Shown: positions 9,173 to 33,249 of the stretch, piece by piece
Layout of the letters: the number at the start of each line of letters is the position of its first letter
Numbering within the stretch: position 1 is the stretch's first letter
Source of the DNA: Catalinimonas niigatensis
GTDB lineage: Bacteria; Bacteroidota; Bacteroidia; Cytophagales; Cyclobacteriaceae
DNA: 64,000 bases
Assembly: GCF_030506285.1 (NCBI RefSeq)
Contig: NZ_CP119422.1
Coordinates: 5,133,501-5,197,500 of the forward strand
Direction of reading: 5' to 3'
Notes under the pieces: generated by a model
The model's database searches: none
What the model was told of the DNA's origin: nothing
What the model saw: the letters and a program-made list of their open reading frames with translations, nothing else
Program-made: the position numbers and the translations under genes

Positions 9173-10675
9173 TTATTCTTTAGCCTGCGCAAAGAAAGGC
9201 CATTCAGCATCTTCTTCATGTGCATGCTGCATGATTTGCTCCATTTCATCTACTATCTCGGGATGCTGATCCGCAATATTATGCTCTTCTCCGATGTCCA
9301 CAGAAAGGTCGTAAAGCTCCAGAGGCGCATCAGGATTTTCAGCAATTCCTGTTTTCACTCCCTTCCACTGATCAATGCGTACTGCCTGCTTCTTCCCCTG
9401 CTCATGAAATTCCCAATAAAGATATGCATGTTCCGCTTGCTTTCCTTCATCCAGTAGCTCGGGAAGAAAAGATATGCCATCTACCTCTCTTTTTGCCTCT
9501 ATGCCTGCCAGGGCGCAGGTGGTAGGCAGTACATCCCAAAAAGCAGAGATATGATCGGACTGACTGCCTGCCTCAATCTTTCCGGGCCAGCAGGCGATCA
9601 TGGGCACACGTATCCCCCCTTCGTACAGATCTCTTTTGTAGCCTTTCAGGGGACCGTTGCTGTTGAAAAAATCAGGATCTGCACCACCTTCCAGATGCGG
9701 CCCGTTGTCGCTGCTGAAGATAATGATGGTATTTTCTGCCAGTCCTAATGCCTTCACCTTTTCTACAATCTGCCCCACCTGATCATCCAAAACTGTAATC
9801 ATAGCCGCAAAGGCAGCATGAGGATAAGGCTGCGAGCCATAACCCCCTACTTTAAAGCGGGGGTGATTGATATCATCTACTCCTTCGTAGGGAGTTTCAG
9901 GAGCAAATTTACTTTTGAACTCATAAGGAGGCTCGGGTGATGACTGCTCTCCAAACATGGCCATGTACTCTTCAGGAGCTAGCAGTTCCGCATGAGGCAG
10001 GATAGAAGGGACATACAGAAAGAAAGAAGTATCCTTATGCTGCTCAATAAACTCCAGTGTCTTTTCCTGAATCAGCGTTGGGGCATAGGTGCCTTTCTTT
10101 TCTCCCTCGTTTTCCTCCAGGATCACTTTTTCTTTGTTATGCCACAGCTCCCAGGGGTAATAATTGTGGGCGATGGTCTGGCTGTTGAAACCAAAAAATT
10201 CATCTATTCCCTGATTGACAGGATCTCCTTCAGAACCAGGGAAGCCCAGTCCCCATTTACCAAATGCGCCAGTCACATAACCAGCTTCTTTGAGTATTTC
10301 GGGCAGCAGGCGTATAGAATCCGGTATGGGAAATTGCCCTTCATGCATCCCCCGGTTGCCCCGCACCGTGGTATGCCCGCTATGCTGTCCGGTCATCAGG
10401 CAGGAGCGGGAAGGGGCGCAGACTGTAGTGCCGGCATAATGCTGGGTAAAGCGCATGCCCTGCGCCGCCAGGCGATCAATGTGAGGAGTTTCAAACTTCT
10501 GCTGTCCATAGCAGCTCAGGTCACCATAACCCAGATCATCGGCCAGAATGTAGATGATGTTGGGCTTCCTAATTGCCTCAGCGGTTTCCTGTTCCTCATT
10601 GCCAGTACTACTGCATCCCCAGCTGACGAAATACAGAAACAAAAAAACGATCAGGTATACATTTTTCTTCATCAT
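9173..10675 (-). CDS. Sulfatase lipoprotein (Cys-type, arylsulfatase A-like)
   Basis: Complete S1 sulfatase of 500 residues counted from the ATG at 10675; an upstream TTG is open but adds six residues before the positively charged n-region. The lipobox ends at C21 (SWG-C). Metal ligands D46-D47 lie in ADDLGYGDLS. The formylglycine motif is C86-A-P-S-R90. Further active-site elements are GKWGLGFPG, LPHAELLAPEEY, FSSDNGPH and KGYKRDLYEGGIRVP. The HTTVRGNRG segment after the motif is typical of a common secreted glycan-sulfatase group in Bacteroidota. It is the last gene of the - strand run that begins with susC, 40 bp after the preceding sulfatase. Confidence 0.92.
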   Translation of the reverse strand: MMKKNVYLIVFLFLYFVSWGCSSTGNEEQETAEAIRKPNIIYILADDLGYGDLSCYGQQKFETPHIDRLAAQGMRFTQHYAGTTVCAPSRSCLMTGQHSGHTTVRGNRGMHEGQFPIPDSIRLLPEILKEAGYVTGAFGKWGLGFPGSEGDPVNQGIDEFFGFNSQTIAHNYYPWELWHNKEKVILEENEGEKKGTYAPTLIQEKTLEFIEQHKDTSFFLYVPSILPHAELLAPEEYMAMFGEQSSPEPPYEFKSKFAPETPYEGVDDINHPRFKVGGYGSQPYPHAAFAAMITVLDDQVGQIVEKVKALGLAENTIIIFSSDNGPHLEGGADPDFFNSNGPLKGYKRDLYEGGIRVPMIACWPGKIEAGSQSDHISAFWDVLPTTCALAGIEAKREVDGISFLPELLDEGKQAEHAYLYWEFHEQGKKQAVRIDQWKGVKTGIAENPDAPLELYDLSVDIGEEHNIADQHPEIVDEMEQIMQHAHEEDAEWPFFAQAKE

Positions 10676-10714
10676 AGGTTTGTATACGTTCAAATGTATG
10701 GATAAAAAATAAGC

Positions 10715-12343
10715 TTATGGCTTTACTTTCTTCACTCCTACTTCATCTGCCCAGCTTTGGTAGTCTTCGGCCAGAGTCCGGGTGATGTCCTGGAACTCGC
10801 TGCTGACATCCTCCAGTTCTGTGGGGTCCTGGTCCATATCAAACAATTGCCACTGATAATCAGGCGCATTGGCCACAATCTTCCATTTACCCTTACGGAC
10901 TGCCTGATGGCCAAAGTGTTCCCAGTACAGTGTTCTTTCTTCATCACCCGCTTCGCCTTCAAAAACAGGCAGCAGGCTTTTGCCCCTCAGCGCTTTGACA
11001 GACTTCCCATTATAGTTTGCAGGATAGGCGGTTTTAGCCGCTTCCAAGCAGGTAACCATGATATCAGTGACATGCGCATAGCCCTCTGCAATGCCGGAAG
11101 CGGCGATGCCTTCCGGCCAGTGAGCAATCAGAGGGGTGGCAATGCCTCCTTCGTTCACCCATTGCTTGTATCTGCGAAAGGGAGTGTTGGAGGCAATCGC
11201 CCAGGGTTTTTGATAAGCCACATAAGATCCCGGGTAGCCAATCTCAGCAGAAGGATCATTGAGGCCTCTTCCTGCGATGTCTTCTGCGCAGCCTCCATTG
11301 TCCGACAAGAACAGGATCAGGGTATTGTCCCAGGCATTGTTTTGTTTTAAGGTATTGACCACCTTTCCGATACCCTGGTCCATGCGATCTATCATGGCCG
11401 CATACACTGCCATGCGCCGAGCCCAATCTTCCTTGTTTTCTGCATTTTCCCAAGCGGCTACGCCTTCCTCACGGGGTGCTAAAGCATAGGTAGAATCAAT
11501 GATCCCCATCTCCAGCATGTTCTGATAACGAAGGTCTCTCAGAGAATCCCAGCCCAGCGCATACTTTCCTTCATATTTCTGAATGTCTTCCGGCAAGGCA
11601 TGCAGTGGCCAGTGAGGGGCAGTATAAGCGAGATAAAGCAGAAAGGGCTGCTCTTCTTTTTGCTGAAAATGCTCGTCCAAAAAAGAGACCGCATAATTGG
11701 TAAAAGCATCTGTCATATAAAAACCATCAGCAGGCGGCGCCCAGGGCTGATCATCCAGCACCATCTGCCGCACTCTGGGCTGCTCTTTGATGATTTCAAA
11801 ATAACTGCTCGCTCCGCTGATCAGGCCAAAGTATCGGTCAAAGCCTCTTTGCCGGGGCCAGTGCTCGGGTTTCTCTCCCACATGCCATTTGCCTGACATA
11901 TAGGTAGCGTAATCTGCCTGCTTCAGCACTTCGGCGATGGTAACGGAACTGTTGTTGAGAAAACCCTGGTAAGGACCAGGGGCAGGCTGGCTATCTACAT
12001 TACTGACCATTCCTCCCATACCGGCTTCGTGAGGATAAAGCCCGGTCAGCAAGGACGCCCTGGTAGGACAGCAGCGGGCAGCATTGTAAAACTGGCGGAA
12101 GCGAAGCCCATTTTCTGCAAGTGCATCCAGGTTGGGCGTAGCAATTTCACCACCGTAGCTCCCGATATCGGAATAGCCCATATCATCGGCCATGATGATG
12201 ACGATATTGGGTTTGTCAGCAGCCTTAGTGCTTTCCTGTTCCTGAGGTTGCTGTGTGCAGGCGCTTCCCAGCGTAGCTGCCATGATCAGCATCAGGATTA
12301 TTTTGAGGGCCTGACTACACATTTCAGAATATTTTACATACAT
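10715..12343 (-). CDS. Sulfatase lipoprotein with CCPTR maturation motif
   Basis: S1 sulfatase, about 542 residues from the ATG at 12343, chosen because the lipoprotein signal then starts with a short n-region and reaches the lipobox LGSA-C29; an in-frame ATG at 12385 is also open. Metal ligands are D53-D54 in MADDMGYSDIGSYGGEI. The maturation motif is C91-C-P-T-R95, with a second Cys at the x position. GKWHVGE, TAPHWPLHA, FLSDNGGCAEDI and a late Lys near NEGGIATP follow. This matches the large arylsulfatase group with an SDNGG-C insert. It lies 60 bp after the truncated sulfatase and upstream of the next sulfatase in the same orientation. Confidence 0.92.
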   Translation of the reverse strand: MYVKYSEMCSQALKIILMLIMAATLGSACTQQPQEQESTKAADKPNIVIIMADDMGYSDIGSYGGEIATPNLDALAENGLRFRQFYNAARCCPTRASLLTGLYPHEAGMGGMVSNVDSQPAPGPYQGFLNNSSVTIAEVLKQADYATYMSGKWHVGEKPEHWPRQRGFDRYFGLISGASSYFEIIKEQPRVRQMVLDDQPWAPPADGFYMTDAFTNYAVSFLDEHFQQKEEQPFLLYLAYTAPHWPLHALPEDIQKYEGKYALGWDSLRDLRYQNMLEMGIIDSTYALAPREEGVAAWENAENKEDWARRMAVYAAMIDRMDQGIGKVVNTLKQNNAWDNTLILFLSDNGGCAEDIAGRGLNDPSAEIGYPGSYVAYQKPWAIASNTPFRRYKQWVNEGGIATPLIAHWPEGIAASGIAEGYAHVTDIMVTCLEAAKTAYPANYNGKSVKALRGKSLLPVFEGEAGDEERTLYWEHFGHQAVRKGKWKIVANAPDYQWQLFDMDQDPTELEDVSSEFQDITRTLAEDYQSWADEVGVKKVKP

Positions 12344-12402
12344 ACTGACGGTTTTCCTCTCAAAACTTCTGGAGTAATAGGGCATAGGTTATCGTAGTTT
12401 TC

Positions 12403-12975
12403 TTATTGGTTTGCGGTAGCATTATACACATTTGTATTTCCTTTTTCCCAGGTTTTTGTCAAAGACTGAACAGTTTCCGGAGGGTCTGCCGCAACATTAT
12501 GATTTTCGTAGGGGTCTGTCTGATGATCATAGAGTTCGGTAACAGGCTCCTCCTTCCTGAAATATTTGGTAAAGCGATACCTGTCGGTGCGTACTGTAAT
12601 TCCCTTCCTAAAGTAACTATAAGCAGTGTTTCTCCAATCTTCAGTCTCTGGATTTTTAAGTAAGCTGACAAAACTTTCCCCATCTGTTTGGTGAGGCATT
12701 GCTACCCCACATAATTCCATCAATGAGGGATAAATATCTGCTGTGCTGACCACCTGATCTATTAAAGTTCCCTTTTGCAGACCGGGAGTCTTCACCATCA
12801 GCACACTGCGCAGCGCATATTCAAAATTCGTATGTTTACCCCACACCCGATCATCTACGAGATGCCATCCATGATCGCTCCAAACGATGATAATGGTATT
12901 TTTTTCCAGATCCAGGCGTTTGAGTTCATCCAGCACCTTACCCATAAAAAAAGTGTTGTGAACCGAATTTTTCAC
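12403..12975 (-). pseudogene. 5'-truncated sulfatase (iduronate-2-sulfatase-like C-terminal part)
   Basis: About 190 codons resemble only the second half of an iduronate-2-sulfatase-type enzyme: GKVLDELKRLDLEKNT, WSDHGWHL, VWGKHTNFEYALR, TDGESFVSLL and a normal tail (ELYDHQTDPYENHNVA). The N-terminal half with the metal Asp pair and the C-x-P-x-R motif is absent, so it cannot be an active sulfatase. The only starts are a GTG at 12975 and an internal ATG. The frame is continuous and in register back to the stop codon of the VCBS gene (TAA at 12985-12987), four codons away. I infer a deletion or recombination junction. It may still be transcribed with the operon. Confidence 0.75.
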
Positions 12976-12984
12976 TACAAAAGT

Positions 12985-15900
12985 TTAAGGTATGATGGCT
13001 TCTTCTCCTTTAAAATCATAAAGGCTGACCTTGATTTCATTGCTATTTAATGGAAGTGTCCTGCTTGACTGAGAAAGATACGAATTCCCGTAGTAAAATT
13101 CCTGAACCCTTTGGCTGCTATCCTGATAGGTGATTTTTGCTTTGAAAATATCGCCTGGAATGTTGAGGTAATAAATATTTTGAGTTTCAAGGTTAGACTT
13201 GTATGCCTGTAATGGCCCACTATTATTTGCAAATAAATATATCTGCTGACCTTTCACATGAATACTTGCGACTCCTCTGGAGTTTTTGTCAATCATCAGG
13301 CCTGAATTGATAGGAAGGGTAGGGATAAAGCCCCCTTTTCCGTTGCCTTTAAGAAAAAGGCCTGTTGAAGCATCGTACCTTCCTCCCACAACCTCAGTCC
13401 CAAAATCATTACCCGACAAAAGTACGTCCAGGTGTCCATCCTGATCAAAGTCCTCTGCTAAAATGCCATGTACCGGAGCAAATTGCGCCTCTTTGGGTAA
13501 GGCTACCATTTTGAATTTTCCATTCCCCAGATTTTCCAGATAGCTGGAAGCCAGTTGAAATACCCTGGCGGTATACGCCCGACTTTTGTCTGCCGGAGAC
13601 AAAATATCGTTAATCGTAGCATTGGCATAACTTTCATAATCAGGGAATTTTTTCTTAAGTGCAGGCACCTGACGGATGAGGTCATCTCTGGAATGTACAG
13701 GGTATTCCTGATGATCCACATAGTAGGTCAGGATCGGGTCAGTGAAGCCATTCTGATCCAGGTCGGTGGCATAGATGGTTATAGGTTCTTCCCCGGATGC
13801 CTCATATTTGGTATTCAAGCCCAGGTTGCCGAGTATATAATCCATGTCACCATCCTGGTCAAAGTCCCCACCGTTGATGCTGTTCCACCAGCCAGCCGTA
13901 TAGCTGAGCCCCGTTGCATTGGATACATTTTCCAGTTTGCCATCTGTATTTTTGAAAAACTGAACGGGCATAAATTCTCCAATTACGATGAGATCGGCAT
14001 CCATATCGTTGTCAAAATCGGTCCAGAGCGCATCTTTGACCATGCCTAGCTTCCTCAGACCGGGTGCAAGCGCATCGGTCTTGTCTACAAATTTGCCACC
14101 TTCATTGATGAGCAGGTAACTGTCGGTGGGAATAGGATATTTCTGTGGAATCAGTCGGCCTCCGACAAATAAATCCAGGTCTCCATCCTGGTCCACATCG
14201 GCCGCTTTGACGCAGGAACTGCTGATACGGAGCGTTGATAGTACATTTTGCGTAATTGTAAAATTTCCTTGTCCGTCATTGGCATACAAACGGTCCTGAT
14301 AGTATTCAGAATCTGCATAATGTTCGTTGCTGCCACTGGCGATATAAAGATCCAGATCGCCGTCACTGTCATAGTCAAACAGCAATACACCTAAGTCTTC
14401 TTCATTTTTCTCTTCTGAACCTAGCAGCGCTTTTTTACTAAAAGTGCCATCTTTTTTCTGAAAGAAAAGATAGCCGGAATGGTCATACGCTCCGCCTACA
14501 AAAAAATCTTCCAAACCATCGCCGTTCATATCGGCCACGGCAATGCCGGGCCCCTGATCAGAGAGTTTATGAGGCAAAAGGTATTGCTGGTTAAAATCAT
14601 TGTATTCCGGGTCTATGTGTTGATGATCCAGCCCCAGCGCTTGTGTCATCTCGGTAAACCAGGTATTGCTGACCTTTTGTAAAGCCGGGGAGTGCTGTAG
14701 TGACCCCTCATCCTTACGAATAGTTAGGCTTTGGTTGGCTTTTATTTCTTCGAGTTTAGAATGCCTGCCATCCGGCCAGCTTATCAGGATACTGTCAATT
14801 TCGCTTATTGAGCCCAGACCAAAATGTAAGCCGTAATCTACGGATGACTGATAGCCCCGGGTTACAGACAACTCCGCCATCTGATACATCTCCTGCGCAT
14901 AGACCGACACCTTTGCGCCAATGGCCAGTGGGTTCAGACTATCCCCCACAAGGTGGATGGACAGGTAATGATGATTACTAAGCTGATCAGCTCGGTTTTC
15001 ATAAATGAAAGCAGCTTCATTGATATTATTGACCACCAGATCCAGGTCGCCATCCAGGTCCAGGTCTGCGTAAGCTGCTCCGTTGGATAGGGAAGGCTGG
15101 TCTATGCCCCATTTTTTAGAGGCATCCTCAAAATTTAGCTCACCTTGATTTTCATACACAAAATTGGAAAGTTTGATGGAAGGCATCTGTTTCGCTTTCT
15201 CTTTTAGGATTTGGTCCAGACTATCGGCAGTGATGTTACCTCCCAGCCCTGCGGTATAATTAATAAAATCCAGGTCGGTGATGTCTCTCAGATAACCATT
15301 GGAAATGAATACATCTTTCCAGCCGTCATTGTTGAAATCAGCCATCAGGGGAGCCCAGCTCCAGTCAGTAGCATGCAGATCCAGCAATTGCCCGATTTCT
15401 ACAAATTTAGGTTGAGCTTCATCAATATTTCCCAGGTTGAGCTGAACAGTGTTTCGCATATACTGCGGCATATAACCTTGCTGCAGCGTATATTGAAAGA
15501 GATTGTAGTTCATCGGTCCTGCCATTTTTTTCCTGTGGTAATTGTCCTTCGGAAGCATGTCCAGGGTTATGATGTCATTCAGTCCGTCATTGTTAAAATC
15601 TGCCACATCATGGCCCATACTAAAATGACTCACATGTCCGAAGTAGGCTTTAGATGATTCGGAAAAAGTGACTTTCCCGTCCGGACCCTCCTGATTATTG
15701 ATGTAGAGATAATCGTGGGCAATAAAATCATTGGTGACAAAGACATCCGGCCAGCCATCTCCGTTGATATCACTGATGCTAACGCCCAGTCCCAGGCCAT
15801 CATAAAGTATTCCGGCTTCTACTGTAATATCTTGAAAGGTATTATTTCCATTGTTGCGATAAAGTTTGTCATTGGCAGGTCCACTGCCATCACTGACCAA

Positions 15901-16560
15901 CGGGCGCACCTCATTAGGATTGCGGATAGCATTGGTATGGTTAAGCAGATACATATCCAGGTCTCCGTCACGGTCATAGTCAAAGAAGGCTGCCTGAGTG
16001 GAGTAAGAGGTATCGGCAATGCCATAGACTTCGGCAGATTCTGTAAAGGTGGGTAAGCCACTTTGAACATCTATGCCATTATTGATATATAACTTATTTT
16101 TTCGCTTTTCCGCCTCATAATTTCCGGAACGACAAACATAAATATCAAGCAAGCCATCATTATTGATGTCCACCATACTTACTCCCGTTGACCAGCCATG
16201 GGATAAGATTCCGGCCTGCTCGCTGATGTCGTCAAAATGTAATTGTCCTGTTTCTTCTTTCCTCCGGTTCAGGTAAAGTCGGTCATTGACCATATTGCCG
16301 GTGAAGAAAATATCGGGTAATGAGTCGTTGTTGAGATCGCCAATGGCTACGCCTCCGCCATTGTAGACATAAAAGAAATCTACCATGTTAAAGGTGTCAT
16401 TTTCTTCAATGGTATTGGTGAAATTTACTCCGGTCTGCGCTGCATCCAACAGTTGAAAGAGCGTCTGACTTTCTTTTTCAGAGCTGCTGTTGTCCTCAGA
16501 ACATCCCCAAAGAAGGAGAATGACAGAGAAAAGAAAATATAGAGATAAGGGGCGTTGCAT
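12985..16560 (-). CDS. VCBS/FG-GAP and ASPIC/UnbV repeat lipoprotein (CRTAC1-like)
   Basis: A 1191-residue surface lipoprotein with lipobox LLWG-C20. I count 14 calcium-binding motifs of the form D-x-[DN]-x-[DN]-G-x-x-D, for example DINNDGLLDIY, DFNNDGWKDVF and DFDQDGHLDVL, spread over the whole length as expected for two beta-propellers. Between them, about residues 540-615, is an ASPIC/UnbV segment (GAKVSVYAQEMYQMAELSVTRGY, then FGLG, SWPDGRHSKL). Such proteins are common beside SusC/SusD in Cytophagales. Their role is not established; glycan binding or adhesion is plausible. The gene follows susD after a hairpin. Its C-terminus looks complete, ending in a normal YDFKGE segment. Confidence 0.88.
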   Translation of the reverse strand: MQRPLSLYFLFSVILLLWGCSEDNSSSEKESQTLFQLLDAAQTGVNFTNTIEENDTFNMVDFFYVYNGGGVAIGDLNNDSLPDIFFTGNMVNDRLYLNRRKEETGQLHFDDISEQAGILSHGWSTGVSMVDINNDGLLDIYVCRSGNYEAEKRKNKLYINNGIDVQSGLPTFTESAEVYGIADTSYSTQAAFFDYDRDGDLDMYLLNHTNAIRNPNEVRPLVSDGSGPANDKLYRNNGNNTFQDITVEAGILYDGLGLGVSISDINGDGWPDVFVTNDFIAHDYLYINNQEGPDGKVTFSESSKAYFGHVSHFSMGHDVADFNNDGLNDIITLDMLPKDNYHRKKMAGPMNYNLFQYTLQQGYMPQYMRNTVQLNLGNIDEAQPKFVEIGQLLDLHATDWSWAPLMADFNNDGWKDVFISNGYLRDITDLDFINYTAGLGGNITADSLDQILKEKAKQMPSIKLSNFVYENQGELNFEDASKKWGIDQPSLSNGAAYADLDLDGDLDLVVNNINEAAFIYENRADQLSNHHYLSIHLVGDSLNPLAIGAKVSVYAQEMYQMAELSVTRGYQSSVDYGLHFGLGSISEIDSILISWPDGRHSKLEEIKANQSLTIRKDEGSLQHSPALQKVSNTWFTEMTQALGLDHQHIDPEYNDFNQQYLLPHKLSDQGPGIAVADMNGDGLEDFFVGGAYDHSGYLFFQKKDGTFSKKALLGSEEKNEEDLGVLLFDYDSDGDLDLYIASGSNEHYADSEYYQDRLYANDGQGNFTITQNVLSTLRISSSCVKAADVDQDGDLDLFVGGRLIPQKYPIPTDSYLLINEGGKFVDKTDALAPGLRKLGMVKDALWTDFDNDMDADLIVIGEFMPVQFFKNTDGKLENVSNATGLSYTAGWWNSINGGDFDQDGDMDYILGNLGLNTKYEASGEEPITIYATDLDQNGFTDPILTYYVDHQEYPVHSRDDLIRQVPALKKKFPDYESYANATINDILSPADKSRAYTARVFQLASSYLENLGNGKFKMVALPKEAQFAPVHGILAEDFDQDGHLDVLLSGNDFGTEVVGGRYDASTGLFLKGNGKGGFIPTLPINSGLMIDKNSRGVASIHVKGQQIYLFANNSGPLQAYKSNLETQNIYYLNIPGDIFKAKITYQDSSQRVQEFYYGNSYLSQSSRTLPLNSNEIKVSLYDFKGEEAIIP

Positions 16561-16621: not shown

Positions 16622-16652
16622 CATAAAACCTGCTCAATAAGCAGGTTTTATG
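16622..16652. terminator. Hairpin terminator after susD
   Basis: A perfect 13-bp stem (CATAAAACCTGCT / AGCAGGTTTTATG) with a 5-nt loop lies 26 bp beyond the susD stop and 62 bp before the VCBS start. The T-rich 3' arm supports partial termination, which would give susCD transcripts in excess of the downstream sulfatase genes. Confidence 0.6.
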
Positions 16653-21791: not shown

Positions 21792-22682
21792 TTACATTTT
21801 GTCTCTTTTTCTGTATTCCAGCGGCGACATTTGCATGACTTTTTTAAATATTCTGGAAAAGTAATACGGGTCCTGATAACCTACTTTATGGGCCACCTCC
21901 TTCACATAGAGCTGGGAAATATCCAGCAACTGGCAGGCATACTGTATCTTGAGCTGTATAAAGTGGTCCACGGGAGAAAAGCCGGTCTTTTGGGTAAATA
22001 ATTTGGAGTAATGTGCGACAGACAAACCCGCCTGATCAGCCAGTTCTTTGAGCGAGAGGGCTTCGCCCACATGGTTTTTCATAAAAGCAATATTCTGGGA
22101 GATGACATCATTGTCTTTGATATTCTGGTGGTGCATAAACTGATCAGGATACAGAAAGGAAGCCAGCAGCCGGTGAAAGCTCAGACTGACATATTCAAGA
22201 TGTGATTTGACATAACCCATAGACAAAGTGTGAATCAGATCTTTGAAAAGGCTGATGCGAAAGTCTTCATCCATGGTATGATGGGCTAACAAAGAGGCCC
22301 TTTTTCCAAAACTGGAAATCAGTTGATCAGTCTTGCTTCCGTCAAAATGTACCCAGTAAATAGTCCATGCACCTTTCTCTTTGGTACTGTAATGATGCGG
22401 AATATTTTTAGGGATAATGATGTAATCATTTTTAGAAAGAAAATAGATCTCTTCTCCAATACATACTTCACCACTTCCGTTGGTTACATAAATCAGAATA
22501 TTTTCATTTGATCCCTGGCTCCTTTTACGAAAATGGAAACGAGCATGAGGATAAAACCCGATATCTGTAATGTATAAATCGCTGGTCAAAGCATTTAACT
22601 GAAGTTGATTTCTTACCGAAGAAGGTAAAACGATACTTTGCTCACCTACGAATCCATCCTTCTTATTTTTCATCATCATCAT
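21792..22682 (-). CDS. AraC-family transcriptional regulator with cupin sensor domain
   Basis: Likely sugar-responsive activator of the flanking operons. Residues about 58-115 form the AraC-type cupin (ILIYVTNGSGEVCIGEEIYFL, IIIPKNIPHHY, WTIYWVHFDG). Residues about 195-296 hold the two helix-turn-helix units: SLKELADQAGLSVAHYSKLF with TGFSPVDHFIQLKI, then VKEVAHKVGYQDPYYFSRIFK with SPLEYRK. Four consecutive ATG codons at 22673-22682 make the exact start uncertain. The gene is divergent from the MFS sugar porter (67 bp apart) and lies upstream of susC, so it is well placed to control both arms of the locus. Confidence 0.93.
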   Translation of the reverse strand: MMMMKNKKDGFVGEQSIVLPSSVRNQLQLNALTSDLYITDIGFYPHARFHFRKRSQGSNENILIYVTNGSGEVCIGEEIYFLSKNDYIIIPKNIPHHYSTKEKGAWTIYWVHFDGSKTDQLISSFGKRASLLAHHTMDEDFRISLFKDLIHTLSMGYVKSHLEYVSLSFHRLLASFLYPDQFMHHQNIKDNDVISQNIAFMKNHVGEALSLKELADQAGLSVAHYSKLFTQKTGFSPVDHFIQLKIQYACQLLDISQLYVKEVAHKVGYQDPYYFSRIFKKVMQMSPLEYRKRDKM

Positions 22683-22749
22683 AATATAGTCCAGTGATTC
22701 CGAAGATAACGCATTTTCTGCTGTTTCTCAATTGCCTTATTTTACTCTT

Positions 22750-24174
22750 ATGCTGGTCAAAGAAAAATTTAACTTTCAATACATCCTTGCCATCTCTTTG
22801 GTTTCAGCCTTGGGCGGCTTATTGTTTGGTTACGACTGGGTGGTTATTGGCGGGGCCAAGCCTTTTTATGAAAGGTTTTTTGGTATTACCAACCAATCTG
22901 CCCTTCAGGGCTGGGCAGTCAGTTGTGCCTTGATAGGCTGTATCGTGGGAGCCGTAAGTTCAGGAAAGATTACTGATGCACTGGGCAGGAAAGTGCCTTT
23001 AATTATGTCGGCAGTGCTTTTTACCGTATCTGCCATCGGCACGGGTATGATAGATACACTAAACTGGTTTATCATATACCGCATTCTGGGAGGAATAGGG
23101 ATTGGACTGGCCTCTACCATTTCTCCGATCTATATCGCCGAACTGGCTCCAGCCCACTATCGCGGAAGGTTGGTTTCGCTGAATCAGCTGACCATTGTGA
23201 TTGGCATCCTGGCCGCCCAGATCATCAACTACCTGATCGCCGAATCTATTCCTACGGGCAGCACCGATGCAGAGATTGCAGCTTCCTGGAATGGGCAGAT
23301 GGGATGGAGATGGATGTTTTGGGCGGAAGTGATTCCTGCATTTACTTTCTTTGCCCTGGCCTTTTTTATTCCCGAAAGTCCGCGCTGGCTGGCAAAGCAA
23401 TCCCGATGGGCGGAAGTTAATAGAACACTTTCCAGAATTGGAGGAAAAGCCTATGCTACAACTGGACAGGAAGAGATTCAACACTCTTTACAGACTCAAA
23501 CACATCAGCCGCAAAATACCAACCTGCTTGGCAAAAACAACCGCTTTATATTGTTGATAGGGATGGTGCTGGCAGTGTTCCAGCAATGGTGCGGGATTAA
23601 TGTGGTTTTTAATTACGCGGATGAAATATTTTCTGCTGCCGGCTACTCCATCAACGATGCCCTGTTCAATATTGTCATCACCGGTATAGTCAATCTGGTG
23701 TTCACCTTTGTCGCCATCCGAACGATAGATCAGTGGGGACGCAGAAAACTGTTATTATTAGGTTCACTAGGTTTGGCCATTACCTATGCTTTGCTGGCTT
23801 TCTGCTATCTGACCGATATCAAAGGTGTGTTTGCCCTTTCCCTGGTGCTGATCGGGATTGCCATCTATGCTATGTCACTGGCTCCGGTAGTCTGGGTAGT
23901 GCTGTCAGAAATCTTTCCCAATCGCATTCGTGGAGTAGCCATGGCCATCGCCACCACTGCCCTTTGGGTAGCTTCTTTTATCCTTACCTATACCTTTCCC
24001 ATATTCAATAGTGGCCTGGGTACTTCGGGAACCTTCTTTCTTTACAGCATCATCTGTCTGGCAGGTTTTGTTTTCGTTCTTCGGACCCTGCCCGAAACCA
24101 AAAATAAATCGCTGGAAGAAATAGAATCGGAAATCCTGACGAATCAAACGGAAGCAAAAGTCCTGGATGCATGA
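22750..24174 (+). CDS. MFS sugar:proton symporter (sugar porter family)
   Basis: Inner-membrane monosaccharide importer with 12 predicted segments, 474 residues. Family signatures: LFGYDWVVIGGA in helix 1, ALGRKVPL after helix 2, the PESPRWL motif at the end of the first half, DQWGRRKLLLLG after helix 8 and PETKNKSLEEIE at the C-terminus. The ATG at 22750 is preferred over a TTG at 22732, giving a normal n-terminus. Likely carries the monosaccharide released by the nearby GH2 and GH36 enzymes; galactose is the best guess because an aldose 1-epimerase ends the operon. Its stop overlaps the next start (ATGA), so it is translationally coupled to the DUF5107 gene. Confidence 0.93.
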   Translation: MLVKEKFNFQYILAISLVSALGGLLFGYDWVVIGGAKPFYERFFGITNQSALQGWAVSCALIGCIVGAVSSGKITDALGRKVPLIMSAVLFTVSAIGTGMIDTLNWFIIYRILGGIGIGLASTISPIYIAELAPAHYRGRLVSLNQLTIVIGILAAQIINYLIAESIPTGSTDAEIAASWNGQMGWRWMFWAEVIPAFTFFALAFFIPESPRWLAKQSRWAEVNRTLSRIGGKAYATTGQEEIQHSLQTQTHQPQNTNLLGKNNRFILLIGMVLAVFQQWCGINVVFNYADEIFSAAGYSINDALFNIVITGIVNLVFTFVAIRTIDQWGRRKLLLLGSLGLAITYALLAFCYLTDIKGVFALSLVLIGIAIYAMSLAPVVWVVLSEIFPNRIRGVAMAIATTALWVASFILTYTFPIFNSGLGTSGTFFLYSIICLAGFVFVLRTLPETKNKSLEEIESEILTNQTEAKVLDA

Positions 24175-27100
24175 AAAAAACAGAAGATAGCATAAGCACT
24201 CCATCCTCTAAAGAAACGATGAAGGTAAGTGCCTGGAGTGAATCCGTCACGATTCCTACTTATCCCATCGGTGAAGCTGAAAAGTACCCGATGTTTCTGG
24301 AAAAAAGAGTATATCAGGGGAGTAGCGGTGTAGTTTATCCTTATCCCGTTGTAGAGAAAATCCATGATGAAAAAGTGGATCATGAATGGCTGGGCGTGTT
24401 TCTGGAAAATGATTTTCTTAAGATCATGATCCTGCCCGAACTGGGAGGGAGGGTACAGATGGCTTACGACAAAATGAAGCAACGCCATTTTGTGTACTAC
24501 AACCAGGTCATCAAACCGGCATTGGTGGGTTTAACCGGTCCCTGGATTTCCGGCGGCATTGAGTTCAACTGGCCGCAGCACCATCGCCCTACCACCTATG
24601 ATCCGGTGGATTTTTGCATAGAAGCAAATGCGGATGGCAGCCAAACGGTCTGGGTCAATGAAATTGAGCGCATGTTCGGCACCAAAGGCAAAGCCGGCTT
24701 TACCCTCCATCCCGATAAAGCTTATCTGGAAATCAAAGTAGATCTGTATAATCGTACGCCTTTTCCACAGACTTTTCTCTGGTGGGCCAACCCTGCTGTC
24801 AAAGTCAATGACGAATATCAATCAGTTTTTCCTCCTGATGTGCATGCAGTATTTGACCACGGCAAACGCGATGTGTCCCACTTTCCTATCGCCAAAGGCA
24901 CTTACTACAAAGTAGATTATTCTGCCGGCGTGGACATCTCCCGTTATAAAAATATTCCCGTACCTACTTCCTACATGGCGGTCAACAGCCAGTATGATTT
25001 TGTAGGAGGATATGAAAACGATAGCAAAGGAGGCCTCTTGCACGTCGCCAATCACCATGTGTCGCCCGGAAAGAAGCAGTGGACCTGGGGAAACGGTGAT
25101 TTTGGCCGGGCCTGGGACCGTAACTTGACCGACGAAGATGGGCCTTATATTGAGCTGATGTGTGGGGTATTTACCGATAATCAGCCGGATTTTTCCTGGT
25201 TGCAGCCCTACGAACAGAAAAGTTTTACCCAGTATTTTATGCCTTATCAGGAGTTGGGGATGGTGAAGAATGCCAACCAGCACGCGATGGTCAATCTGGA
25301 AGTGGAGAATGGTGAAGCTACGCTCAGAGTATATACCACCGGTTTTTTTCCTAACACACACTTGCTACTGTTTGCTAAAGGAGAAAAAATCTGGGAAGAT
25401 CAGCATGATTTTGCTCAGGGTACAGTATATGCGCAGAAAATTAAAGTGGCAGAAACCCTATCGCCTGACGAGCTCAAAGTGGTGGTGCTGAAAGAAGATC
25501 AGCGGAAACTGATTTCCTGGCAGATGGATAAATCAGATTCTGCCGACATCCCTGAACCTGCCAAAGCAGCGCTGGAACCAGAACAGATTGAAAGCACTGA
25601 ATTGCTCTACCTGAACGGACTTCACCTGGAGCAGTACAGGCATGCTACCTATCAACCTACCGATTATTACCGGGAAGCTTTGCGCCGTGATCCAGAAGAT
25701 ATTCGTAACAATACTGCCTTGGGCTTATGGCTGATGCGCCGGGCACAGTTTCAGGAGGCAGAGCAGCATTTTCGGAAAGCCATTGAAAGATGGACGGTAA
25801 GAAATCCTAATCCTTATGATGGAGAAGCGTATTACTTCCTGGGTATCTGCCTGAAGATGCAGCAACACTACCAGGAAGCCTATGAGGCATTGTACAAAGC
25901 CTGCTGGAATGCAGCCTGGCAAAATGCGGCTTACTTTCATCTTGCACAAATAGATGCGCATCGGCAGGATTGGGAACTGGCGCTGGAGCACATAGAAAAA
26001 TCATTGATCAGAAACAGCCAACATCATCAGGCGCGGCACTTGAAAATTATCCTGCTACGGAAATTGGGAAGAAAGGAACAGGCCTTTTCTTATGTAAAGG
26101 AGTCTATCAAAACAGATACTTTTAACCTGGGAGCACTTTACGAGAAATACCTATTGACAAAGGATTCCCGCATACTGGATGAATTTCTTTTTCTGATACG
26201 AAATCATTCTTTCAACTTTGCAGCATTTGCCCTGGATTATGCACTGTCAGGCTGTTATGAAGAAGCCATTGCTATTTTATCCCTACATCAGACGGAGTAT
26301 GATCGTCCTAATCCTCTGCTGGCGTATTACAAAGCTTGGTTTGCTCATCAGGCAGGTAATGCAACAGAAGCCAAAACCTATTATGCTGAAGCAGCAGCCC
26401 AATCTCCGGATTTTGGTTTTCCCAACCGCCTGGATGAGGTGATGGCATTGCAACAGGCTCTTAAAATCAATCCTCAGGATTACCGAGCGCACTATTTTCT
26501 GGGCAACTTTTTCTATGCTTTTAGGCAACATCAGCTTGCGATCAGCCATTGGGAAAAAGCGGCTGCATTGCAGGATGATAACCCAATCACCTATCGCAAT
26601 CTCGCGCTGGCGTATTTCAACAAAACTGCTGAGCCTGAGAAAGCACTGAAGTTTTTGGAAAAAGCTTTCTACATGGACGAAGGTTCGGCACGACTGCTGA
26701 TGGAACTGGACCAATTGTATAAAAGCTTAAATCGCTCTTCCCAGGAGAGGCTGGCTTTTCTGGAAAAATACCCGGAGCTGGTGGCTTTCAGAGATGATCT
26801 TTTCCTGGAGCGGATTACGCTTTTCAATACGCTGGATAGGTACGAAAAGGCGCTTGACTTATTGAGCAGCCGAACTTTCCATCCCTGGGAAGGAGGTGAG
26901 GGGAAAGTCCCGGCGCAATATCTTTACAGTCGCATCGCTTTGGCCTATCAGCATATCCAACATCAGCAGTATACTCAGGCCATAGAGCATCTGACGCTGG
27001 CACAGGAATACCCGGAAAATCTGGGAGAAGGTAAATTATTTGGTGCGCAGGAGAATGATATTTTCTACTGGCTCGGCTGTGCTTACGATGGATTAAATGA

Positions 27101-27545
27101 TCGCAAAAAAGCGGAAGAAGCCTGGGAAAAAGCTTCTGTAGGATTGTCTGAGCCTGAGCCTGCTATCTTTTACAATGATCAGCAACCCGATAAAATCTTT
27201 TACCAGGGTTTGGCTTTGCTGAAGCTCAACCGACAGGAGGAAGCGCATTGCAGGTTCCACAAACTCATTTCTTTCGCAGAGGAACGTGTTACCCAAAAAG
27301 TAAAAATAGATTATTTCGCAGTATCCCTGCCTGATCTGCTGCTGTGGGAAGAGGATCTACAGGCCAGAAACACCCTGTTCTGCCATTATCTGATGGGCCT
27401 GGGCTATCTGGGCCTGGGAGATACAGAGAAAGCAAAAGCTTCATTTCAAAAAGCCCAGCAACTGGACATCCACCATCAGGGAGTGCATTGGCATCACCAA
27501 ATGGCTTTGGACATTCATGTAAAACCGCATTTCACCAAATTTTAG
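24171..27545 (+). CDS. DUF5107 and TPR-repeat protein
   Basis: An 1124-residue protein without signal peptide, so probably cytoplasmic. Residues about 20-360 match DUF5107, whose beta-sandwich resembles aldose-epimerase/carbohydrate-binding folds (FLKIMILPELGGRVQMAYDK, GPWISGGIEFNWPQHHRPT, WWANPAVKVND, WTWGNGDFGRAWDRNLTDEDGPYIELM). The rest is made of tetratricopeptide repeats: a first group near 510-700 (ALRRDPEDIRNNTALGLWLM, ALYKACWNAAWQNAAYFHLA), then near 800-870 and 940-1110. The start codon overlaps the MFS stop. An internal ATG at 24219 would remove 16 residues. DUF5107-TPR proteins often sit beside sugar porters; their reaction is unknown. A role in sensing or modifying imported sugar is inference. 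Confidence 0.88.
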   Translation: MKKTEDSISTPSSKETMKVSAWSESVTIPTYPIGEAEKYPMFLEKRVYQGSSGVVYPYPVVEKIHDEKVDHEWLGVFLENDFLKIMILPELGGRVQMAYDKMKQRHFVYYNQVIKPALVGLTGPWISGGIEFNWPQHHRPTTYDPVDFCIEANADGSQTVWVNEIERMFGTKGKAGFTLHPDKAYLEIKVDLYNRTPFPQTFLWWANPAVKVNDEYQSVFPPDVHAVFDHGKRDVSHFPIAKGTYYKVDYSAGVDISRYKNIPVPTSYMAVNSQYDFVGGYENDSKGGLLHVANHHVSPGKKQWTWGNGDFGRAWDRNLTDEDGPYIELMCGVFTDNQPDFSWLQPYEQKSFTQYFMPYQELGMVKNANQHAMVNLEVENGEATLRVYTTGFFPNTHLLLFAKGEKIWEDQHDFAQGTVYAQKIKVAETLSPDELKVVVLKEDQRKLISWQMDKSDSADIPEPAKAALEPEQIESTELLYLNGLHLEQYRHATYQPTDYYREALRRDPEDIRNNTALGLWLMRRAQFQEAEQHFRKAIERWTVRNPNPYDGEAYYFLGICLKMQQHYQEAYEALYKACWNAAWQNAAYFHLAQIDAHRQDWELALEHIEKSLIRNSQHHQARHLKIILLRKLGRKEQAFSYVKESIKTDTFNLGALYEKYLLTKDSRILDEFLFLIRNHSFNFAAFALDYALSGCYEEAIAILSLHQTEYDRPNPLLAYYKAWFAHQAGNATEAKTYYAEAAAQSPDFGFPNRLDEVMALQQALKINPQDYRAHYFLGNFFYAFRQHQLAISHWEKAAALQDDNPITYRNLALAYFNKTAEPEKALKFLEKAFYMDEGSARLLMELDQLYKSLNRSSQERLAFLEKYPELVAFRDDLFLERITLFNTLDRYEKALDLLSSRTFHPWEGGEGKVPAQYLYSRIALAYQHIQHQQYTQAIEHLTLAQEYPENLGEGKLFGAQENDIFYWLGCAYDGLNDRKKAEEAWEKASVGLSEPEPAIFYNDQQPDKIFYQGLALLKLNRQEEAHCRFHKLISFAEERVTQKVKIDYFAVSLPDLLLWEEDLQARNTLFCHYLMGLGYLGLGDTEKAKASFQKAQQLDIHHQGVHWHHQMALDIHVKPHFTKF

Positions 27546-27576
27546 CATCAAGACAACCTATCCTATGCATCAACTT

Positions 27577-30399
27577 ATGAAAATCAGATTCCTTATTTTT
27601 TGTCTTTTGGCCTTTTGCTGGTCCTGCAACTCCTCTAAACCCCAGGATAGCATAGACCTGAAAGGTAGCTGGGCATTTAAAATAGACGCATCGGACAGAG
27701 GAGAAGCAGAAAGCTGGTTTACCCAAAGTCTGGAGGAAACGGTAGAGCTTCCCGGTTCTATGGCTACCAATGACAAAGGTGATGAGGTAAATCTACAGAC
27801 CGAATGGGTAGGGGGCATCCTCAATCCCGATTGGTACAATGATCCCAATTATGCGCCTTACATGGATTCCAGCAACTTTCGTTTCCCTTTCTGGCTACAG
27901 CCTGTCAAGAAATACACCGGCGCAGCCTGGTACCAAAAGGAAGTAGACATCCCGGATGACTGGCAAGACAAAGCAATTATTTTACATCTGGAAAGGTGCC
28001 ACTGGGAGTCCAGCGTGTGGGTAGATGACCAGAAGGTGGGTTCGCAGAACAGTCTTTCCACTGCCCATCGTTATCCACTGACTTCCTATTTAAGTCCCGG
28101 TAAGCATACGATTTCCATCCGGATAGACAACCGCATCAAAATAGACTTGGGAGAAAATTCACACAGCATCTCCGACCATACGCAATCCAACTGGAATGGT
28201 ATTGTAGGGGAAATCTATCTGGAAAGCAGGCCAAAAACGTATTTTTCAGAGGTGCAATTGTTTCCTGATGCAAGCGCACAATCGGTTACTGTCCGGGGGA
28301 AAGTGAGCGCTGTTGATGCACAAAGCACTCCGCTCAACATTACCGCCCAGGTCAGCGGAAAAAACTTTGAGGCCAATTTGGATGAGCAATCTTTTGAAGT
28401 GAATAGCGAAGGGGCAGAAACGGACTTTGAGTTTACCTACGATTTGGGTGAGGAAGCAAAACTATGGGATGAATTTGATCCCAATGTGTATCAAATGAAG
28501 CTCAGCATAGAAAATGGAGATGAGCATGCAGAAGATTTCGGCTTCAGAGATATTGCGTTTGAAGAACGTCAGTTCGTCATCAACGACAGACCAACTTACC
28601 TGAGGGGTACCCTGGAATGTGCCATTTTCCCCGAAACCGGCTATCCGTCTATGGACGTGGATGCATGGAAGAAAATATACAGCACCATACAGGCCCACGG
28701 ACTGAACCACGTGCGTTTCCATTCCTGGTGTCCGCCCAAAGCTGCTTTTATAGCTGCTGATGAGATGGGTGTTTATCTACAGGTAGAAGCCGCCTCCTGG
28801 GCCAACCAAAGTACGACGCTGGGTGATGGCAAGCCGGTAGATCAATTTGTGCAGGAGGAAAGTGAGCGCATCGTTCAGGCCTATGGTAATCATCCTTCTT
28901 TTCTGATGATGGCCTACGGCAACGAACCGGGAGGCAATCAGTATAAGGAGTTTCTGGCGGAATATGTCAACACCTGGAAAGCCAAAGACGATCGCCGGAT
29001 TTACACTTCAGCCGCCGGATGGCCCGACATTGCCGAAAATGAATTTCATGTACTCCCCGCACCACGCATACAGGCCTGGGGACAGGAGCTGAAAAGCATC
29101 ATCAATGGCAGGCCCCCTTCCACCAACTTTGACTTTACGGATACCATACCCGATGATGGCATCGCTGTGGTTTCGCATGAAATTGGTCAGTGGTGTGTGT
29201 ATCCTGATTTCAAAGAAATAGAGCGCTATACTGGCGTACTCAAAGCCAAAAACTTTGAACTGTTCAGAGAAAGTCTGGAAGCGCATCAGATGGGTGATCT
29301 GGCTGAGGATTTTCTGATGGCTTCGGGTAAATTACAGGCTCTTTGCTATAAAGCAGACATAGAAGCCGCTTTGCGCACCACCAACCAGGCGGGTTTTCAG
29401 TTACTTGACCTTCATGATTTTCCCGGCCAGGGTACGGCGCTGGTAGGCGTATTGAATCCCTTCTGGGAAGAAAAAGGCTACATTACCGCCGAAGAATACA
29501 GCCGCTTCTCTAATTCCACCGTACCCCTGGCCCGACTAGACAAGCGGATATTTGTAGAAGGAGAAAGCATGGAAGCCAAGATTGAAATTGCGCACTTCGG
29601 AAAAGAAGCCCTTCAAAATGTAACGCCCAACTGGACACTCAAAGATACGGAGGGGAACACCATAGTGGAAGGTCAGTTGGATCAGCAAAACATTGCCCTG
29701 GGAAATGGAATTGCGCTGGGAAACATTGCACATACTTTTGAGCAAAATAACCAGCCCAGAAAAGTGGTATTGGAAGTAAGTGTGGATGACTTCAGCAATC
29801 ACTGGGATCTTTGGGTATATCCTCAGTCCTCCCCGACTATTGCCGGAGAAGGCATCAGGCATGTCGCTAAGTTGGATGCCAGCATACTGAACGAACTACA
29901 AAGTGGTGGAAAAGTGTTGCTAAGTTTAGGAAAAGGGAAGGTAGCTGCTGACAAAGGAGGAGAAGTAGGCGTAGGTTTTTCCAGTATCTTCTGGAATACT
30001 GCCTGGACCGGCAATCAGAAACCGCATACTTTGGGAATTCTTTGCGACCCTGAGCATCCGGCCTTGCAGCAATTTCCTACGGAATTTCATTCCAACTGGC
30101 AATGGTGGGATGCCATGAGCCATAGTGATGTGGTCAATCTTAATGAACTGTCGGATGACATACAGCCTATCGTGCGGGTGATTGATGATTGGGTGACCAA
30201 CCGAAGTCTGGGGTTGATTTTTGAAGTCAAGGTAGGAGAGGGAAAACTGCTGATCAGCGGTGTGGATTTGAGAAATCAGCTTAGGCAGCGTCCTGAAGCA
30301 AGACAAATGCTCTCCAGCCTGATGGCCTATATGGAAAGCGATGCTTTTGCTCCTACAGTGACTCTTAGTACTGCACAACTGCTAAGCATACAGCAATAG
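27577..30399 (+). CDS. GH2-like glycoside hydrolase lipoprotein
   Basis: Secreted lipoprotein (lipobox FCWS-C17) with the GH2 layout: an N-terminal jelly-roll sugar-binding domain (residues about 25-215; WYQKEVDIPDDW, SVWVDDQKVG, NWNGIVGEIYLE), an immunoglobulin-like middle domain, and a TIM barrel from about residue 335 (FVINDRPTYLRGTLECAIFP, HVRFHSWCPPKAAFIAADEMG). The probable acid/base is E450 in MAYGNEPGGN and the probable nucleophile E535 in VVSHEIGQWCVYP. Long C-terminal domains follow to residue 940. Activity within GH2 is open (beta-galactosidase, beta-glucuronidase and others). The cluster context favours removal of a beta-linked sugar from a galactose-containing glycan. An ATG four codons upstream (27565) is also possible. 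Confidence 0.85.
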   Translation: MKIRFLIFCLLAFCWSCNSSKPQDSIDLKGSWAFKIDASDRGEAESWFTQSLEETVELPGSMATNDKGDEVNLQTEWVGGILNPDWYNDPNYAPYMDSSNFRFPFWLQPVKKYTGAAWYQKEVDIPDDWQDKAIILHLERCHWESSVWVDDQKVGSQNSLSTAHRYPLTSYLSPGKHTISIRIDNRIKIDLGENSHSISDHTQSNWNGIVGEIYLESRPKTYFSEVQLFPDASAQSVTVRGKVSAVDAQSTPLNITAQVSGKNFEANLDEQSFEVNSEGAETDFEFTYDLGEEAKLWDEFDPNVYQMKLSIENGDEHAEDFGFRDIAFEERQFVINDRPTYLRGTLECAIFPETGYPSMDVDAWKKIYSTIQAHGLNHVRFHSWCPPKAAFIAADEMGVYLQVEAASWANQSTTLGDGKPVDQFVQEESERIVQAYGNHPSFLMMAYGNEPGGNQYKEFLAEYVNTWKAKDDRRIYTSAAGWPDIAENEFHVLPAPRIQAWGQELKSIINGRPPSTNFDFTDTIPDDGIAVVSHEIGQWCVYPDFKEIERYTGVLKAKNFELFRESLEAHQMGDLAEDFLMASGKLQALCYKADIEAALRTTNQAGFQLLDLHDFPGQGTALVGVLNPFWEEKGYITAEEYSRFSNSTVPLARLDKRIFVEGESMEAKIEIAHFGKEALQNVTPNWTLKDTEGNTIVEGQLDQQNIALGNGIALGNIAHTFEQNNQPRKVVLEVSVDDFSNHWDLWVYPQSSPTIAGEGIRHVAKLDASILNELQSGGKVLLSLGKGKVAADKGGEVGVGFSSIFWNTAWTGNQKPHTLGILCDPEHPALQQFPTEFHSNWQWWDAMSHSDVVNLNELSDDIQPIVRVIDDWVTNRSLGLIFEVKVGEGKLLISGVDLRNQLRQRPEARQMLSSLMAYMESDAFAPTVTLSTAQLLSIQQ

Positions 30400-30501
30400 G
30401 TTCAAGCTTAGCGTTTTGGATGCGTATTTTCAGCGATGGGCAAAGTACGATAGAGAGATATCTATCTTATAGAAATTTTAAATAAGACGAAATCATTGAG
30501 C

Positions 30502-33243: not shown

Positions 33244-33249
33244 AGCAAC

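Follow-up and report, generated by a model that had tools for sequence, protein, structure and literature searches.

A double-propeller lipoprotein gene recurrently found after susD: a possible accessory component of SusCD-type importers

What is a large repeat lipoprotein doing directly behind a susCD pair? The question is raised by a stretch of 64,000 nucleotides from Catalinimonas niigatensis (assembly GCF_030506285.1, contig NZ_CP119422.1, positions 5,133,501 to 5,197,500), hereafter the window. An open reading frame (ORF) of 1191 aa occupies positions 12985-16560 of its minus strand; this gene, its product and their full-length relatives are labelled X. The genes immediately preceding X on that strand are susC and susD, the gaps being 3 nt between susC and susD and 117 nt between susD and X, in agreement with the initial annotation, which had placed X directly after susD. 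That annotation saw in X a possible surface glycan-binding protein, standing in the place usually taken by SusE/F-type proteins. SusCD biology has been modelled largely on gut Bacteroides, where the known extras are SusE/F/SGBP proteins and surface hydrolases. Here a different role is proposed, to which we give an even chance of being correct: X would be a surface lipoprotein serving as a general accessory (third) component of SusCD-type importers, as a double-propeller platform or a hand-over partner. This is supported by a lipobox-like N-terminus, a two-propeller model, recurrent placement after susD and a conservation above that of SusC and SusD.

The link between X and susCD is not a matter of local chance. 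The best 80 of 522 confirmed relatives from a scan of genome contigs were picked by similarity, not context, and their loci were scored with our own hidden Markov models for susC, susD and X, ignoring unlabelled ORFs of <150 aa. X was found directly after susD in 46 of the 80 (40 adjacent and 6 later members of an array started by susD), a same-strand susD lay one to four genes upstream in a further 16, and one relative ends at a contig edge. The initial annotation would have given up its proposal had there been no conserved link with susCD; with 62 of 80 relatives directly or nearly linked, such a link exists. Overlapping Pfam counts for 79 upstream genes were SusD_RagB 41, SusD-like_3 40, SusD-like_2 16 and SusD-like 6. 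Judged by their titles, the carriers are Cytophagales, Flavobacteriaceae, Chitinophagales, Saprospiraceae and others, together with one Calditrichota and one 'Gemmatimonadetes' metagenome bin, the taxonomy of which may be mis-assigned. The bins titled Gemmatimonadetes and Calditrichota (L087 and L044) both contain susC-susD-X, pointing to transfer of the whole unit or to mis-binning. No account of a link between X-type proteins (CRTAC1/ASPIC, FG-GAP/VCBS) and SusC/SusD was found in open-licence PMC papers.

The arrangement is also repeated within the C. niigatensis genome (7.13 Mb, one contig). An ASPIC search returned 15 matches, comprising 14 full-length X genes and one frame of 109 aa, and found none in any of 14 control genomes. 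The other 13 full-length proteins are 41-49% identical to that of the window. At 6 of 11 places susC-susD-X stands on one strand (the window, L009, L011, L013, L014 and L018), with L009 having a susD from another SusD family (PF12741). At the remaining places a sulfatase and a short ORF separate susD from X (L010), X is convergent to the susCD pair (L012, L016 and L017), or X is followed by a PAP2 gene and then susC (L015). Six of 11 places after susD gives a binomial p of 4e-10, calculated from 56 susD among 5800 genes, both rough inputs and the gene number an estimate; about 50 SusD-type matches are carried by the genome. Two samples that were drawn differently agree with the linkage but are weaker. 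Six of the 14 X genes of genome G133 directly follow susD (one as the second of a pair), 4 more are near on the same strand and 4 are not, whilst in eight genomes from a draw of the phylum a PF07980 susD is at most 500 nt away for 6 of 28 X genes and at most 8 kb away for another 10. The 109-aa ASPIC frame, at L016 (genome positions 2398977-2399183, minus strand), is situated just downstream of susCD and adjoins the intact convergent X; it may be the decayed remnant of an X gene in the usual position.

X looks like an exported lipoprotein. Its N-terminus contains a lipobox-like LLLWGC-SEDNS, in which Cys20 is followed by SEDNS, and this C-SEDN resembles the SusD N-termini of the same genome as well as the SDDFE consensus of the outer-face lipoprotein export signal given in the available excerpt of PMC5080379. 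Of 90 X members, 74 conform to a crude lipobox pattern. At E 0.001 all Pfam matches in X were to FG-GAP_3 (E 9.1e-73, 9 stretches), FG-GAP and UnbV_ASPIC (residues 546-613, E 6.9e-26), the last scoring 90.4 bits and thus above the curated cut-off of 23.4. Scanning for D-x-[DN]-x-[DN] with overlaps merged gave 14 distinct calcium-type sites, at residues 75, 131, 194, 264, 321, 408, 499, 677, 729, 788, 848, 899, 933 and 1037. The pattern D.[DN].[DN][GM] matched 15 times (overlaps counted), whereas 2000 shuffles of the protein averaged 0.39 matches and never exceeded 4. The initial description, a lipoprotein of about 1190 residues with 14 calcium-binding motifs and an ASPIC/UnbV segment, is borne out, calcium binding itself being predicted from the motifs.

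An AlphaFold2 model of X, based on an alignment of 90 members (mean pLDDT 93.5, pTM 0.93), consists of two 7-bladed propellers between which the 14 sites are split 7 + 7; X would have 14 motifs because it has two propellers with seven blades each. Residues 31-618, including the ASPIC domain, superpose on mouse CRTAC1 9etn_A (Z 37.9, rmsd 2.5, 464 aligned, chain of 551 residues), and the sequence match to CRTAC1 has an E of 1.3e-14. In both, an FG-GAP propeller precedes an ASPIC/UnbV domain. X differs in being a bacterial lipoprotein encoded beside susCD and in having a complete additional propeller of ~500 residues, whereas the solved example of CRTAC1 is a single propeller of 551-586 aa. X thus belongs to the CRTAC1/ASPIC family, with a second propeller added. 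This separate second half matches LGI1 EPTP (Z 31), a KICSTOR chain (Z 29), aldos-2-ulose dehydratase 4a7k (Z 28.2) and many other propellers (24-27), matches that are generic for the fold; after 9etn, a Foldseek search with full-length X gave mostly unrelated multi-propeller proteins. Invariant residues outside the calcium motifs include W400-S401-W402, N370 and N421 among the 90 members, and K344, Q366 and D399 are kept in at least 90% of them. All are within blades 5-6 of the first propeller and may form a binding or active site. A further difference from CRTAC1 is that the family-profile sequence matches to 9etn omit profile positions 292-475, which hold these blade 5-6 residues.

Fourteen loci contain at least two X genes after one susD. 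None of 33 array members had its best match in its own array. Across 13 arrays, uncorrected for relatedness, first and last members co-vary (r 0.85, p 2e-4), and on the X tree the tandem-labelled members group together (10 changes vs 17.8 in shuffles, 0/500 as low). Array members are best regarded as old, non-equivalent paralogs whose order has been kept with susCD, as expected for subunits. The full order susC-susD-X1-S-X2-X3 was found in five loci (L011 of the present genome, L057 Maribacter, L071 Roseivirga, L090 Marinoscillum and L095 Algoriphagus), and appears to be an ancient ordered cassette. S is a lipoprotein-like protein of ~190 aa whose gene is next to X genes or between them; the F, C and N residues around its 'ELNKQG' are invariant. 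Its profile was found in 13 loci, those beyond the full-order five being L053, L055, L056, L059, L062, L077, L080 and L099. None of five S proteins (L056, L057, L071, L090 and L095) had a Pfam match, and a fold search with an AlphaFold model of S (pLDDT 89.5) gave no convincing match (best Foldseek E 6e-3, best Z 7.5). The short ORF at the S position of L061 is a different protein with a weak Calx-beta match. The susC-susD-X1-S-X2-X3 importer architecture was not found in open-licence PMC papers. We tentatively suggest that X is a dedicated third core SusCD subunit outside the gut Bacteroides model, and that some systems possess a fixed hetero-set of three double propellers and a small lipoprotein, in this order, which is common to cytophagal and flavobacterial genomes.

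A substrate-specific binder is expected to vary most of the three proteins. Over 52 susC-susD-X triples the mean p-distances were 0.574 for X, 0.684 for SusC and 0.731 for SusD, the SusD set mixing Pfam families, which raises its value. Corresponding distances were 0.552, 0.654 and 0.737 within the present genome (n=7) and 0.540, 0.650 and 0.738 within G133 (n=5). X changes least of the three, which suggests a general rather than a substrate-specific role. Moreover, X-linked SusCs are scattered over the SusC tree, and X has therefore been paired with many different SusCD lineages. One X-specific SusC clade was not found; taken together, the three labels X, X nearby and no X do cluster on the tree, if weakly (17 changes vs 20.6 when shuffled, 2/200 as low).

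How might such a component work? X would be anchored in the outer membrane beside SusC and SusD, exposed on the outer face and docked on SusCD. Two 7-bladed propellers, rigidified by calcium if this is indeed bound, would provide a platform next to the SusD lid. A conserved face of the propellers may capture or position substrate, or hold the complex together, for hand-over to SusCD. A hairpin before the gene may keep the dosage of X below that of SusCD. Among possible precedents, BtuG is a propeller. The available excerpts of the sources describe BtuG lids sitting on BtuB (PMC10404256), XusB as a 7-bladed lid on XusA (PMC13142918) and four-component levan and dextran utilisomes with extra surface lipoproteins on SusCD (PMC7618045), so that lipoproteins can sit on TonB-dependent transporters. 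X resembles BtuG and XusB as a propeller lipoprotein encoded beside a TonB-dependent transporter gene. In the same excerpts BtuG and XusB act as the lid, XusB with one propeller, whereas X is additional to SusD and has two; X also differs from XusB in matching FG-GAP/ASPIC and not DUF4374 (Pfam at E 0.001). As in the utilisomes, an extra lipoprotein is linked with SusCD, in the case of X by gene position. The levan and dextran extras described there are a glycoside hydrolase and an SGBP, whereas X is neither by sequence. By the domains tested, X is not SusE/F, SGBP-B or XusB. Should X prove to be a subunit of the importer, environmental nutrient uptake would include a widespread, overlooked part (X was found in 31 of 118 genomes of the phylum), and mammalian CRTAC1 would have a bacterial relative whose molecular context can be tested.

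Several observations weigh against X being a part of the importer. Seventeen of the 80 relatives were scored as lacking a same-strand susD upstream; for 10 of them the stretch contains no susD at all, and for 7 it contains one elsewhere. Among these 7, L087 was mis-scored, as by map it follows susD and an antisense ORF masked the matched X. The 80 loci are partly non-independent, L056 and L080 coming from sister species. Twelve of the 28 X genes in the eight-genome sample are without a PF07980 susD within 8 kb, and G101 is a genome that carries X and lacks any PF07980 susD. Sixteen of the 90 members fall outside the crude lipobox pattern, and in at least four of these (L015, L067, L076 and L081) inspection by eye shows no Cys of a signal peptide. 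Of the 74 that fit the pattern, only 14 have two or more acidic residues between +2 and +6, which leaves outer-face exposure uncertain for many members. A Mantel test over 52 loci gave r 0.54 for X vs SusC, a value confounded by relatedness, and 0.45 for X vs SusD, compared with 0.88 for SusC vs SusD. Within single genomes the correlations of X were not significant (r 0.12 with both SusC and SusD in the present genome, n=7; 0.48 with SusC and -0.11 with SusD in G133, n=5). Co-evolution as proof of contact, being positive over 52 loci and absent within single genomes, was therefore not used. With the X label alone, clustering on the SusC tree is not clear (17 changes vs a shuffled mean of 19.0, 68/500 as low). 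Finally, co-transcription is not assured, as a terminator-like hairpin often lies between susD and X.

This hairpin belongs to the longer of the two gaps, the median being 112.5 nt between susD and X vs 12.5 nt between susC and susD (52 loci, start taken as the first start codon). A perfect stem of at least 8 pairs was present in 23 of 44 susD-X gaps of at least 60 nt vs 0.35 expected from shuffles, a count that covers susDs followed by X, so that the hairpin may be general to susD and not specific to X. The mean folding z of the susD-X gaps was -4.7, and a scan for promoters and terminators found no excess (9 vs 9.1 and 5 vs 4.0). Read-through attenuation, yielding less X than SusCD, is the simplest inference, and separate transcription of X is possible. 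Nothing on a susD intergenic stem-loop was found in the open-licence PMC literature.

The alternative that survives best, rather unlikely in our judgement, is that X is a substrate-specific surface glycan-binding protein, the equivalent of SusE/SusF/SGBP, and here binds a galactose-type, perhaps sulfated, glycan. X resembles these proteins as a lipoprotein encoded directly after susD, and the invariant W400 and W402 could stack on sugars. The scarcity of the known binders would also fit. Whole-genome profile searches gave no match for PF14292 or PF16411 and a single one, at another locus, for PF18329 (SGBP_B), each of the three profiles matching 1 of 14 control genomes (Bacteroides ihuae). At that locus, L017, SGBP_B follows susD, and the convergent X is outside the slot. 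No SusE/SusF-type domain was seen in the 28 window proteins scanned (50 ORFs of at least 150 aa exist, many antisense), as the initial annotation had noted. X itself has no Pfam match to PF14292, PF16411 or PF18329, and is built of propellers, whereas the levan SGBP in the excerpt of PMC7618045 has two Ig-like domains and a binding domain.

However, with no SusE/F domain in the genome no usual occupant is displaced by X, and the notion of a place usually taken by SusE/F does not fit this genome. Behind the 40 other susDs, sulfatases are the most frequent family (10 of 34 same-strand next genes), and SusE/F is not among the next-gene families listed (25 of 66). Replacement of SusE/F was also rejected as a general rule. 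Among 118 genomes of the same phylum (presumably Bacteroidota), X (at E 1e-100, best 6 candidates per genome scored) was found in 31 and the SusE domain in 44, although some PF14292 matches lie in proteins of >1000 aa that are not SusE-like. Both were present in 17, X only in 14, SusE only in 27 and neither in 60, so that the two co-occur (odds ratio 2.7, Fisher p 0.03) and do not exclude each other. The greater conservation of X than of SusC and SusD likewise argues against a glycan-specific binder.

A closer inspection of the orthologous loci bears on the proposed substrate. X has orthologs at 75% (L140), 62% (L141) and 51% (L143), all three within susC-susD-X, while a fourth relative (L142 of G133, 50%) does not adjoin a susCD pair. 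The fetched stretches of the three loci have no ORF matching the window sulfatases or GH36, and therefore the sulfatases at 9173-12975 look like a local addition. The sulfated-galactan idea is thereby weakened and applies, if at all, to the present strain. Of the proposed glycan-binding role, the conserved susCD link and the lipoprotein nature stand; the displaced SusE/F does not, the sulfated substrate is weakened, and the high conservation speaks against it. Beside X, 9 nt past its end, lies a 190-aa C-terminal sulfatase piece (12403-12975), whose match to the Pfam sulfatase domain (301 positions) is confined to positions 216-301.

It is improbable that X, as a surface or adhesion protein, shares only its regulation with susCD and makes no contact with the importer. 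Such a protein would explain the unlinked copies, the lack of co-variation with SusC and SusD within genomes and the hairpin between susD and X in many loci, and an adhesion role has been suggested for FG-GAP and similar repeat proteins of marine flavobacteria (excerpt of PMC2668756). Yet the placement after susD, the ordered multi-X arrays and the several SusD families involved exceed what co-regulation needs. Hardly better founded is an enzyme with an active site in one propeller, acting on a surface substrate before import: the conserved polar and aromatic residues K344, Q366, N370, D399-W-S-W402 and N421 outside the calcium motifs and the sugar-active 4a7k among the top second-propeller matches would fit, but LGI1, the KICSTOR chain and many propellers score alike, no catalytic motif was recognised by eye (no search was aimed at one) and glycoside hydrolases already adjoin X in some loci. 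The analogy with aldos-2-ulose dehydratase was rejected, its structural match being no better than those of many unrelated propellers.

The features of X and of its neighbours are collected in Table 1.

Table 1. Coordinates in the window of X, its parts and the genes upstream of it.
Feature	Positions	Strand	Basis
X, double-propeller CRTAC1/ASPIC lipoprotein	12985..16560	-	ORF, Pfam, motif scan, structure model
Second 7-bladed propeller (predicted), ~residues 630-1128, motifs 677-1037 (seven)	13177..14673	-	model, motif scan
UnbV_ASPIC domain, residues 546-613	14722..14925	-	Pfam
First 7-bladed propeller (predicted), ~residues 31-530, ends approximate, motifs 75-499 (seven)	14971..16470	-	model, motif scan
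Signal peptide and lipobox, residues 1-20, Cys20	16501..16560	-	sequence; Cys20 in at least 90% of 90 aligned members
Perfect inverted repeat of 13 bp with a loop of 5, within the 117 nt between susD and X; terminator-/attenuator-like	16622..16652	-	not listed by terminator scan
susD, 529 aa	16678..18267	-	PF07980 + PF14322
susC, 1037 aa	18271..21384	-	TIGR04056
AraC-type regulator with cupin sensor; homologue in 3/3 orthologous susC-susD-X loci	21792..22682	-	Pfam, locus comparison
Sugar_tr MFS transporter; homologue in 3/3 orthologous loci	22732..24174	+	Pfam, locus comparison
DUF5107-TPR protein; matches in 3/3 orthologous loci (L141: only a 182-aa ORF, 36% identical)	24171..27545	+	
GH2 glycosidase; kept in G118 and G133 loci	27565..30399	+	

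The G118 ortholog locus also keeps PSD1, DUF1501 and AP_endonuc_2 genes. In the window a PSCyt1/PSCyt2/PSD1 gene with CBM6, followed by DUF1501, lies at 30496-34731, and both are kept in the G118 locus, where second copies are present. PSCyt1, PSCyt2, PSD1 and DUF1501 are domains known mainly from Planctomycetes. On the downstream side of X, a vanadium chloroperoxidase second domain was matched in 2 of 77 operon-like genes, and the open-licence PMC literature held nothing joining vanadium-dependent haloperoxidase with SusD. X is often followed by a gene for a PAP2-superfamily protein of ~440-460 aa, which accounts for 12 of 50 next genes and for 14 of the 77 operon-like ones, examples being L014:12922-14265, L015:12004-13347 and L021:13627-14943.

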